From: an uncultured SAR86 cluster bacterium
GTDB lineage: Bacteria > Pseudomonadota > Gammaproteobacteria > Magnimaribacterales > D2472
Length of the DNA: 64,000 nucleotides
Direction: 5' to 3'
Assembly: GCA_902593675.1 (NCBI GenBank)
Contig: CACJJI010000002.1
Span: 62,001-126,000 of the forward strand
The position numbers and the translations under genes were made by a program. Of this stretch, positions 35,770 to 38,979 are shown in pieces (the first letter of the stretch is position 1; each line of letters opens with the position of its first letter). A model generated the notes under the pieces. It saw nothing but the letters and a program-made list of their open reading frames with translations, had not been told where the DNA came from and searched no databases.

Positions 35770-35797
35770 CTTGAATTTTTCTTAAAAGCTCCTAAAT
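35770..35797 (+). promoter_or_regulatory. Sigma32-like promoter upstream of hsp20
   Basis: CTTGAA (35770-35775), 13-nt spacer, CTCCTAAAT (35789-35797). Confidence 0.5.
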
Positions 35798-35804
35798 AAA
35801 AGAT

Positions 35805-35884
35805 GTAGATGCCATTTGGGTCTACGTATATTAACCGCATATGCCAATTGGATATGCACATTTAGTCGCTACTAAGGAGGACTA
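35805..35884 (+). promoter_or_regulatory. Candidate ROSE-like RNA thermometer (three hairpins)
   Basis: Hairpin I GTAGA...TCTAC; hairpin II GCATAT(g)CC-AATT-GGATATGC; hairpin III TAGTC(g)CT-ACTAAGG-AGGACTA, an exact 7-bp stem with one bulged G that covers part of the Shine-Dalgarno and has the UYGCU/AGGA pairing. Confidence 0.75.
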
Positions 35885-35888
35885 TATT

Positions 35889-36341
35889 ATGGTACTTAAT
35901 TTTACCGATCCGTTCCTAACCACTCGCGTGTTAGGGTTTGAAAGCCTGTTTGATAGATTGCAGAGATTCTCTGAAACCACAGAAAGATCTTCAAGCTATC
36001 CTCCATATAACATCAGGAGAGATCAAAACAAGATCTTCATTGATGTCGCTGTTGCCGGTCTTGCAAAAGAAGACCTCAACATTGAGTTGGCAGAAGGCGT
36101 ATTAACCATCGAGCATAAAGGCCCAAAAGCTGAACTTCTCAATGGTGAAAATGAAGTTGTCTATCAAGGCATAGCTCAAAGAGCATTTAAGCAGCAATTT
36201 ACTTTGGCTGAAAACGTTGAAGTGCATGGTGCTGAATTAGTCAATGGAATGTTAACTCTCGAATTAGAGAAGATTATTCCAGATGCTCAAAAGCCACGCA
36301 TGATTGACATTAAAGCTCCTAAAATTTTAGGCAGCAAATAA
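35889..36341 (+). CDS. Hsp20/alpha-crystallin family small heat-shock protein (IbpA-like)
   Basis: YPPYNIRRDQNKIFIDVAVAGLAKEDLNIEL ... GIAQRAFKQQFTLAENVEVHGAELVNGMLTLELEK. Start set at the ATG after AAGGAGG; the track start at 35841 lies inside the 5' UTR hairpin. Confidence 0.95.
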   Translation: MVLNFTDPFLTTRVLGFESLFDRLQRFSETTERSSSYPPYNIRRDQNKIFIDVAVAGLAKEDLNIELAEGVLTIEHKGPKAELLNGENEVVYQGIAQRAFKQQFTLAENVEVHGAELVNGMLTLELEKIIPDAQKPRMIDIKAPKILGSK

Positions 36342-36359
36342 CTCATTCATAATGTGATC

Positions 36360-36386
36360 GGGGAGCCTAGGCTCCCCTTTTTTTAT
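36360..36386 (+). terminator. Rho-independent terminator after hsp20
   Basis: GGGGAGCCTAGGCTCCCC followed by a T tract. Confidence 0.9.
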
Positions 36387-36400
36387 TACAATGGTTTAAC

Positions 36401-38350
36401 ATGAACTTCATGAAAAATATCTTTCTAACCTTAAGCATCTTATGGTGCGCAGTTCTGCTGGCCAATCCAGTAGAGACTGGTCATGCAAAGGCGAGTTTGA
36501 TAACCAATCTGCAAAGCTCGTCTCAAGAATCTTTTTATGTCGGTGTCCGTTTGCAAATGCAAGATGGATGGCACACATATTGGGAAAATCCAGGTGATTC
36601 AGGCAGTCCTTTTGAAGCAACATGGAAGACTGATGCTGGGGTCATCATTGAAAATGTAAGCTGGCCTACCCCTCAAACTATTCCATACCCGCCTCTCATG
36701 ACCTTTGGATATGAAGGTGATGTTGTTTTTCCTTTTCAAGTTTTTCGTTCGCTCGATACCGAGTTAACTGAAATAAGTCTAGATTTTGATTTCTTAATTT
36801 GCGCAGATATTTGTATTCCCGAACAGGCAACATTAACCCTAGATCTAACATCGGCATCTTCAAGTGATCTTTTAGATCAAGCGATAGATAATTTACCAAC
36901 CAAGCTTGTAAAAACTACAAGCGCTATTAGCGGAGATGAGCTTAAGGTAGTATTTCAGTCACCCAAAGAATTTTCTTCAGCATATATATTCCCTCGAGAA
37001 GGCAATTTATTTGTCTACACTCCTAATCAAGCAATTACAGCAATTGAAGACAATATTTTCGAAATAACTCTGCCTTTAGCTCAAGAGGAAGTTGAGTCAT
37101 TTTCTGGAATCATTAGTTTGGATGGTCAAGGATTTCAATTTGAAGAACAAATAGCCTCTTCCGGCGGCATGTCACTTTGGCAAGCGATTCTATTTGCATT
37201 GATTGGTGGTTTGATCTTGAATCTTATGCCATGTGTTTTTCCAGTGATCTCTTTAAAAGTTCTGAGCTTTGTTTCTATGGGTGGCGATGACCACGCAAAA
37301 ATAAGAAATCATGCTCTAGCATTTGTTGGTGGGGTCATGTCTACTTTTCTATCGATTGCAACTGCGCTTATGATCATAAGGTCGACTGGATCAATGATTG
37401 GATGGGGTTACCAACTGCAATCACCAGTTGTTGTAGGGATCTTAACGTTGATTATGTTAGGCATTGGGATGATTCTCTTAACAAATATCAATGTCGCCGC
37501 AGGCCTCACCAATATAGGTTCAAGCGTTCAAAATAGAAATGATTACTCAGGTTCGTTTTTTACAGGCGTCTTAGCGGTTGTTGTGGCCTCACCTTGTACA
37601 GCTCCGTTTATGGGAGCAGCTGTGGGCTACGCTCTCCTCCAACCATCATTTGCAACTTTGCCTATCTTTTTGTCTTTAGGTCTGGGATTCGCTGGGCCTT
37701 ATCTTATTCTGGCAATTAAGCCGCAATGGATTAGCTCTCTGCCAAAACCAGGACCGTGGATGGAAACATTAAAGCAATTTTTTGCATTTCCAATGATTGC
37801 AACGGCTTTGTGGTTAATGTGGGTATTTATGGTACAAACCTCCGGAGATGCGCTCATCCAACTCTTGATTTTAGGTTTATCACTAGGTCTGGCTATCTGG
37901 ATGATTGCTGCATTTGAAGGTCGTTGGAAGTGGGTCGGGTTGATTCTTACATTCATCGCATCAATTCAGATTTTTAATAATTTACCAAATAACACCAATG
38001 AAATTACACAATCAGCTGATGCGGATAGTTGGAACCTGTCGATTGAATCTGATTTGCAAGCAAACAATCAAGCCTACCTGATTAACTTTACCGCAGCTTG
38101 GTGTATAACATGCCAGACAAATGAAAAAGCTGCACTTGCAAGAACATCAGTTCAAGATTACTTGGCTGAACAAAATATTAAATACATTAAAGCTGATTGG
38201 ACAAACAGGAACGAGGATATTGCAATCGGACTAGCTAAGTATGAACGCTCAGGAATTCCTTTGTATATTTTTTGGAAACCTGGCATGAGAAATTCTAAAA
38301 TTTTGCCAGCTGTTTTAACCGAAGACTTATTAATTAGGAGCATGCAATGA
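36401..38350 (+). CDS. DsbD/ScsB-family thiol:disulfide interchange protein
   Basis: Secreted N-terminal domain, LNLMPCVFPVISLKVLSF and VASPCTAPFMGAAVGYAL membrane core, C-terminal thioredoxin NFTAAWCITCQTNEK. Confidence 0.92.
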   Translation: MNFMKNIFLTLSILWCAVLLANPVETGHAKASLITNLQSSSQESFYVGVRLQMQDGWHTYWENPGDSGSPFEATWKTDAGVIIENVSWPTPQTIPYPPLMTFGYEGDVVFPFQVFRSLDTELTEISLDFDFLICADICIPEQATLTLDLTSASSSDLLDQAIDNLPTKLVKTTSAISGDELKVVFQSPKEFSSAYIFPREGNLFVYTPNQAITAIEDNIFEITLPLAQEEVESFSGIISLDGQGFQFEEQIASSGGMSLWQAILFALIGGLILNLMPCVFPVISLKVLSFVSMGGDDHAKIRNHALAFVGGVMSTFLSIATALMIIRSTGSMIGWGYQLQSPVVVGILTLIMLGIGMILLTNINVAAGLTNIGSSVQNRNDYSGSFFTGVLAVVVASPCTAPFMGAAVGYALLQPSFATLPIFLSLGLGFAGPYLILAIKPQWISSLPKPGPWMETLKQFFAFPMIATALWLMWVFMVQTSGDALIQLLILGLSLGLAIWMIAAFEGRWKWVGLILTFIASIQIFNNLPNNTNEITQSADADSWNLSIESDLQANNQAYLINFTAAWCITCQTNEKAALARTSVQDYLAEQNIKYIKADWTNRNEDIAIGLAKYERSGIPLYIFWKPGMRNSKILPAVLTEDLLIRSMQ

Positions 38351-38979
38351 AAACAATTTTAAGTTCTTTTATCTTCTTATTTTTCGTGGCCCATGTTTTT
38401 AGCGCTGAAATAGTTTTACAAAATCCAAAAGTAAATGAAAAAGCTCCTTTATTTAGTGCAGTTAATTCATATGGAGAAAGAATTAATTTAACTGACTTCC
38501 AGGGTCAACCAGTCATCCTGGAGTGGTCTAACCATGAATGTCCATACGTTGCTAGACATTATGAAGAAGAAAACATGCAGTCAGTTCAAAAAATGGCTCA
38601 GGAAGAAGGCTTTGTCTGGTTGACTATCATCTCTTCAACCCCAGGAGAGCAAGGCCACGTTAGCCCCTCACTAGCCAACGATTTAACCCAGTCAAGAAAG
38701 GCACATCCAAGTCATGTTCTACTGGATGAATCTGGTGAAATTGGGATGCAATACGGAGCTAAAACAACTCCTCACATGTACATGATCGACGACAAAGGTT
38801 TGCTTCGGTACAAAGGAGCGATTGATGATATTGGCATGGGCATGAAGTTTTTCTCCGCCTCTTTTGCTAACGCCACAAACTATGTTGCAACTCAGCTTTC
38901 AGATGTGAAGAGAAATAAGAAGTTAGCAATAGATAATACTGTGGCTTATGGGTGCAGCGTAAAGTATAACTACGACTGA
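38347..38979 (+). CDS. Redoxin/AhpC-TSA-like thioredoxin-fold protein
   Basis: Signal peptide; FSAVNSYGERINLTDFQGQPVILEWSNHECPYVARHY; GAKTTPHMYMIDDKG. Confidence 0.9.
   Translation: MKTILSSFIFLFFVAHVFSAEIVLQNPKVNEKAPLFSAVNSYGERINLTDFQGQPVILEWSNHECPYVARHYEEENMQSVQKMAQEEGFVWLTIISSTPGEQGHVSPSLANDLTQSRKAHPSHVLLDESGEIGMQYGAKTTPHMYMIDDKGLLRYKGAIDDIGMGMKFFSASFANATNYVATQLSDVKRNKKLAIDNTVAYGCSVKYNYD

Follow-up and report, generated by a model that had tools for sequence, protein, structure and literature searches.

The window analysed here is the whole 64,000-nucleotide stretch of DNA from the genome of a gammaproteobacterium of the SAR86 cluster. SAR86 bacteria are among the most abundant uncultured bacteria of the surface ocean and have streamlined genomes. 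The locus under study comprises an ibpA-like small heat-shock protein gene (hsp20), a predicted promoter and a leader with three hairpins, all on the plus strand:

35770..35775, plus strand: -35 element CTTGAA of a putative sigma32-type promoter (assigned from its sequence and its fixed spacing in relatives; also found before grpE and groES)
35789..35797, plus strand: putative -10 element CTCCTAAAT, 13 nt after CTTGAA, a degenerate match to the sigma32 consensus CNCCATAT
35804..35826, plus strand: hairpin I, UGUAGAU-G-CC[AUUU]GG-GUCUACG, 7+2 bp, bulged G at 35811
35837..35857, plus strand: hairpin II, GCAUAU-G-CC[AAUU]GG-AUAUGC, 6+2 bp, bulged G at 35843
35863..35884, plus strand: hairpin III, the putative thermosensor, UAGUC-G-CU[ACUAAGG]AG-GACUA, 5+2 bp, bulged G at 35868
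35866..35870, plus strand: ROSE motif UCGCU (UYGCU), paired with AGGA at 35878-35881
35874..35880, plus strand: Shine-Dalgarno sequence AAGGAGG, its first AAGG in the loop of hairpin III and its second AGG(A) paired
35889..36341, plus strand: hsp20 (ibpA-like), 150 aa, ATG at 35889; Pfam HSP20 at 1.4e-14

The best NCBIfam model for the hsp20 product was IbpA (8.7e-30, below the equivalog cut-off), and a single hsp20 was detected in the genome. A nitroreductase gene lies upstream. 3' of hsp20, at about 36360-36385, an inverted repeat of high G+C content is accompanied by a run of T and resembles a terminator. It is followed (region 36360-38979) by genes for a DsbD-like membrane thiol-disulfide protein that carries a thioredoxin domain at its C-terminus, and for an AhpC/TSA-type thioredoxin-fold protein.

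The three consecutive hairpins before the hsp20 start that an earlier note on this DNA had described were all recovered with the sequences and positions given there. Its 7-bp stem with one bulged G, burying part of AAGGAGG, corresponds to hairpin III (5+2 bp), and its 8-bp stem with one bulged G corresponds to hairpin II (6+2 bp). The bulged G of hairpin I had been overlooked. With it, all three hairpins follow a common plan of stem, bulged G, two inner pairs and short loop. The Shine-Dalgarno stretch 35874-35881 reads AAGGAGGA, and its exposed loop half could serve as a landing site for the ribosome. In the window's genus, a hairpin that competes with hairpin III, UUUAGU[CGCU]ACUAAG, can be drawn at 35861-35876, with a computed energy of about -1.0 kcal/mol at 37°C; it is not conserved beyond the genus.

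For the promoter, the earlier note had proposed that CTTGAA-N13-CTCCTAAAT resembles a sigma32 site. The -35 part of this proposal stood. Compared with the pattern CTTGAA-N13-18-CNCCATAT, whose -10 half is the published sigma32 consensus (PMC3669281), the window's -35 element is exact and conserved. In 28 of 32 SAR86 leaders, hairpin I follows TTGA at a distance of 34 nt, with variable sequence in between. The -10 part held less well, as CTCCTAAAT matches the consensus poorly and only partially; closer matches are found before hsp20 in relatives (CCATAAATAA, CCCCACAT and CCATAAAT) and at grpE and groES. In the same genus these two genes are preceded by like bipartite elements, CCCTTGAA...CATCCCAATAT for grpE and ATTGAA...GCCATAAATAA for groES. 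An rpoH gene was identified in the genome with 393.5 bits (cut-off 323.1). A genome-wide search with the sigma32 pattern returned 36 matches, one of them just upstream of grpE, versus 13 for the reversed pattern, and is too loose to be used alone. With the predicted transcription start (about 35800-35804), the transcript would have hairpin I at its 5' end.

For comparison within the family, 34 SAR86 leaders were aligned. All of them parse into three bulged-G hairpins with small departures (one mismatch beside the hairpin II bulge in L035; a shortened inner helix in L050). Covariation was measured on an alignment fitted by a covariance model (R2; alignment A5). In this alignment 99.1% of pair cells are standard, and 9 of the 24 pairs show double-sided changes. 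Cells with such changes numbered 47, against 12.1 expected from shuffles, and none of 500 shuffles scored as high on these measures; the numbers lean in favour of the structure, because the alignment is structure-fitted and the sequences are related. In a control with slid structures only 25-45% of the cells were paired. Double-sided changes affect 3 of 9 pairs in hairpin I, where the covariation was recovered on a MAFFT alignment built without structure, and 5 of 8 pairs in hairpin II, where AU/GC and UA/CG exchanges occur in 10-14 sequences each. Among relatives, the loop of hairpin II is in some cases GCAA, GAAA or GUAA (GNRA type) or UUCG, which fits a selected hairpin. Hairpin III, with one both-sides change, is nearly invariant in the family, as expected of an anti-Shine-Dalgarno strand, and its covariation is thin for that reason; AGGAGG is invariant across the 34 leaders. 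The earlier note had named uncompensated breaks of the stem in relatives as an observation that would speak against a thermometer. In the relatives compared, the stems are kept through compensatory changes. In one genus (g8; L104, L108) some leaders retain hairpins I and III but have a hairpin II without the exact bulged-G core (a long AU-rich stem in L104).

Beyond the family, the sensor was compared in 67 leaders from four families of the order. In 66 of them the UYGCU motif is kept; the sole exception (L038) has AGGG, and the pair is retained as U-G. The hsp20 leaders of the three other families likewise carry UYGCU opposite AGGA, as UCGCU in f4 and UUGCU in f2 and f3, so that Y is C in the window's family (f1) and f4, and U in f2 and f3. 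For the Y-G pair, 45 leaders have C-G and 21 have U-G; for the pair flanking the motif, 45 have G-C and 21 have C-G. These exchanges follow family lines, and each may represent one event. One f3 genome has two HSP20 genes; one of them, at locus L122 (G151:C43), encodes a protein that starts differently, with MLHLARYSS, and has a distinct leader with UUGCU before AGGAGG.

The distribution of the leader was determined with a covariance model (R3) built from the 34 leaders. R3 matched 111 of the 204 genomes of the order, once per genome. Among the hsp20-bearing genomes of the window's family the leader is present in 92 of 94; the two without a match are G080 and G013, where the contig begins inside the gene. 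Wherever a match had a listed hsp20 (97 of 97), it lies directly upstream on the same strand, in 88 cases at identical distance. When R3 was run on 291 genomes spread over the class, no match was obtained outside the SAR86 order. A minus-strand match of R2 at 35778-35861 (E=0.05) was excluded as the reverse complement of the near-palindromic hairpins.

ROSE-like elements are defined by a terminal hairpin in which a U(U/C)GCU motif pairs imperfectly with the Shine-Dalgarno sequence, leaving a G bulged (PMC3669281, PMC11342760). In the window, UCGCU at 35866-35870 pairs with AGGA at 35878-35881, G 35868 is bulged, and the hairpin is the 3'-most one. The leader precedes a small heat-shock gene (Pfam HSP20), as do all 97 matches just mentioned. 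ROSE-like leaders are further expected to have two to four hairpins, the 5' ones stable and the Shine-Dalgarno hairpin the least stable, and the folding prediction for the three hairpins of the window shows this order. When the 60-nt leader was dinucleotide-shuffled with AGGA held fixed, UYGCU/AGGA pairing with a bulged G, flanked by 3 pairs or more, was found in 6 of 20000 shuffles. An Rfam search of the window, at gathering threshold and at E<=10, gave no ROSE match, nor did a search of 15 relatives; the window reaches neither the 43-bit gathering cut-off of ROSE_3 (RF02523) nor the 65-bit cut-off of ROSE_2 (RF01832), for which E. coli ibpA scores 100.4. A ROSE_2 scan of 149 gammaproteobacterial genomes gave none above the cut-off, and its weak matches were treated as chance. 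The f3 leader L126, however, scored 44.1 bits with ROSE_3, above the cut-off, and R3 matched the same stretch (E=4e-4). Four further f2/f3 leaders scored 19-32 bits with ROSE_3 in the right place. Run unfiltered on the E. coli ibpAB region, R3 had its two best matches in the leaders of ibpB (17.5 bits) and ibpA (12.0 bits). Since the definition fits and homology is indicated by L126 and R3, the leader is a ROSE-like element, although it reaches the gathering threshold of no Rfam family. On comparative grounds, the reading of TCGCT/AGGA with its bulged G as ROSE in the earlier note is supported by the definition, by conservation in four families, by the compensatory changes in the stems and by L126.

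Likenesses to known systems differ in detail. ROSE_3 has a two-hairpin core consisting of a bulged-G hairpin GAUGCC...GGGUC, which is also the core of SAR86 hairpin I, and a Shine-Dalgarno hairpin with ACUcGCU; SAR86 adds the middle bulged-G hairpin and has UAGUCGCU/AGGACUA in place of ACUcGCU/AGgAGU. E. coli ibpA (ROSE_2) shares three hairpins before a small heat-shock gene, UCGCU opposite AGGA with a bulged G, a bulged G in an upstream hairpin too (Rfam consensus) and a promoter with CTTGAA. There is little sequence identity, however, hairpin I is longer in E. coli, and the E. coli sensor buries the whole Shine-Dalgarno sequence whereas that of SAR86 leaves AAGG in the loop. The short ROSE-like elements of Pseudomonas also combine a sigma32 promoter, a stable upstream hairpin and a labile UYGCU/Shine-Dalgarno hairpin before ibpA (PMC3669281). 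They have two hairpins rather than three and were tested experimentally, whereas the SAR86 element is known by comparison; in probing, their Shine-Dalgarno hairpin melts while hairpin I remains closed (PMC3669281). ROSE-G elements resemble the leader in that a terminal hairpin has a bulged G opposite the Shine-Dalgarno sequence, but have CUGCU and a second bulged G in the Shine-Dalgarno strand (PMC12857270); the window, with UCGCU and a single bulge rather than CUGCU with opposing bulged Gs, was not assigned to ROSE-G. Nor is it a FourU thermometer, as the anti-Shine-Dalgarno strand is UAGUCGCU and not four consecutive U. A search of the accessible literature for RNA thermometers in connection with SAR86 found no paper.

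Folding energies were unexceptional (z = -1.18 over 101 nt; z = -1.45 for hairpin III). Computed stabilities at 37°C (nearest-neighbour, isolated hairpins) were -7.2, -6.8 and -3.6 kcal/mol for hairpins I, II and III, respectively, hairpin III being the weakest. Across two calculations the energy of hairpin III ranged from -3.6 (isolated) to -4.9 kcal/mol; the E. coli ibpA sensor, computed in the same way as the isolated hairpins, gave a similar -4.1 kcal/mol, and published values for Pseudomonas sensors are -4.1 to -7.6 kcal/mol (PMC3669281). Computed accessibility of the Shine-Dalgarno sequence at 20°C was 0.16, versus 0.35 for other genes of the window. Nearest-neighbour folding across temperatures predicted no switch for the window leader, the Shine-Dalgarno accessibility barely changing. 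It predicted none for the proven E. coli ibpA thermometer either, so this calculation cannot decide on melting. By a crude method, the UUGCU sensor hairpins of f2 and f3 (L090, L110-L127) had about +0.3 kcal/mol at 37°C and a Tm of about 35°C, and those of the window's family a Tm of about 58°C. These computed values hint at different set points for the weaker f2/f3 sensors, or at help from non-canonical pairs.

E. coli IbpA uses R93 to bind the 5'UTR of its own mRNA and repress it, and self-repression by the IbpAs of E. coli, Cedecea and Vibrio needs this residue (PMC10474464). The equivalent residue in the window's Hsp20 is R98, and an equivalent arginine was found in 89 of 89 copies from the SAR86 order (loci redundant). 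This arginine is widespread among the IbpAs of alpha- and gammaproteobacteria (PMC10474464), and its conservation in SAR86 therefore permits feedback without proving it. In a comparison of 18 ibpA-type leaders across the class (one from the SAR86 order; L223 and L235 excluded for lack of a usable start), UYGCU occurs near the Shine-Dalgarno sequence in 16. An upstream hairpin with a Y-G-C bulged-G core is present in 8 of the 18 (L221, L222, L225, L226, L231, L238, L239 and L240), against 0.2 expected from shuffles, in a scan that was designed after SAR86 had been seen. The upstream hairpin of L238, UUGCU...AAGGA, is a near copy of the sensor. By eye, such hairpins are also seen in E. coli (L146) upstream of ibpA (GGACGC-G-CC[UGAU]GG-GUGUUC and GACCU-G-UCC...) and ibpB (AUGCUC-G-CC[GUCA]GG-GAGCAU). 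The role of the upstream ROSE hairpins has been called not fully understood (PMC3669281). In the accessible literature a bulged G was reported for the sensor hairpin only; as the scan was designed post hoc and subscription literature lay mostly outside the search, the priority of the upstream pattern is uncertain. We tentatively suggest, with less confidence than doubt, that gammaproteobacterial ROSE leaders, from that of SAR86 to those of E. coli, repeat the bulged-G core (Y-G-C, a short loop, and C-G or U-A as inner pairs) as a module. The core would be kept upstream because something reads it, most likely Hsp20/IbpA via the conserved arginine, or else a tertiary contact. If so, the upstream hairpins would be an operator for protein feedback, and SAR86 would have the three-module version.

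We consider it highly likely that a ROSE-type RNA thermometer and a sigma32-type promoter control the only hsp20 (ibpA-like) gene of this genome. Sequence comparison supports the predicted promoter elements, the three conserved bulged-G hairpins just after the predicted start and the UYGCU/Shine-Dalgarno pairing. From these we infer heat control of the SAR86 hsp20 itself, the folded leader very probably hiding the ribosome-binding site until the cell warms. In the proposed mechanism, sigma32 would make the hsp20 transcript upon build-up of unfolded protein. Hairpins I and II would act as stable scaffolds, and hairpin III, the least stable, would keep the Shine-Dalgarno sequence closed at normal sea temperature and open on warming. 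Synthesis of Hsp20 would require the agreement of both signals. Less confidently, we propose that Hsp20, like IbpA of E. coli, may complete a feedback loop by binding its own leader when aggregates have been cleared.

In an alternative view, the main role of the leader is that of an operator for protein binding: Hsp20/IbpA would bind the bulged-G hairpins and repress its own synthesis, and temperature would act indirectly through titration by aggregates. The R93-dependent self-repression in E. coli, Cedecea and Vibrio (PMC10474464) and the arginine kept throughout the SAR86 order are in its favour, as are the invariant bulged G and C-G pairs of the upstream hairpins, which simple scaffolds would not need. 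The arginine is too common among such proteins to be specific, however, UYGCU/Shine-Dalgarno pairing is a hallmark of direct thermometers, and both mechanisms can coexist, as in E. coli; as the main function we regard an operator as possible but doubtful. A leader that merely stabilises the mRNA or tunes translation, with no thermometer function, would agree with the unexceptional folding energy and the lack of melting in silico, and 5' hairpins can indeed stabilise mRNA (PMC3669281). Against it stand the exact ROSE motif retained opposite the Shine-Dalgarno sequence throughout the order, the one leader above the ROSE_3 cut-off, and a computed accessibility of the Shine-Dalgarno sequence below that of other genes of the window; this explanation appears very unlikely.

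Two further alternatives concern the promoter and the protein start. Transcription might start from a housekeeping sigma70 promoter instead of a sigma32 promoter, given the weak sigma32 match of CTCCTAAAT and the likeness of TTGAA/TAAAT to sigma70 hexamers as well; with like elements before grpE and groES, relatives that have CCCCACAT or CCATAAAT before hsp20, and rpoH above its cut-off, we think this improbable. The protein might also begin at the in-frame ATG at 35841, from which the window has an open frame (a 166 aa ORF), so that the conserved stretch would be coding. This start was rejected and is scarcely conceivable: 30 of 33 relatives have an in-frame stop within 57 nt upstream of the hsp20 start (11 of 33 within 27 nt), an in-frame upstream ATG of any kind occurs in only 9 of 33, indels in the leader are not multiples of three, and the changes track base pairs.

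The thermometer reading makes the SAR86 leader a well-supported case, on comparative grounds, of a known thermometer type (ROSE) in an ecologically important uncultured lineage. As Rfam holds no annotation of the element in SAR86 genomes, the alignment and model fill this gap. Two points are possibly new: the sensor's bulged-G core also occurs in hairpins further upstream in the leaders of SAR86 hsp20, of E. coli ibpA and ibpB and of further gammaproteobacterial ibpA genes, and SAR86 conserves the arginine with which IbpA binds mRNA. With the repeated module and this arginine, the role of upstream ROSE hairpins becomes directly testable. Nearly all genomes of the family that have hsp20 keep this 90-nt regulatory leader, which suggests that in the open ocean it pays to sense temperature directly for the synthesis of a chaperone; the natural variants of the leader are material for asking if set points follow habitat.
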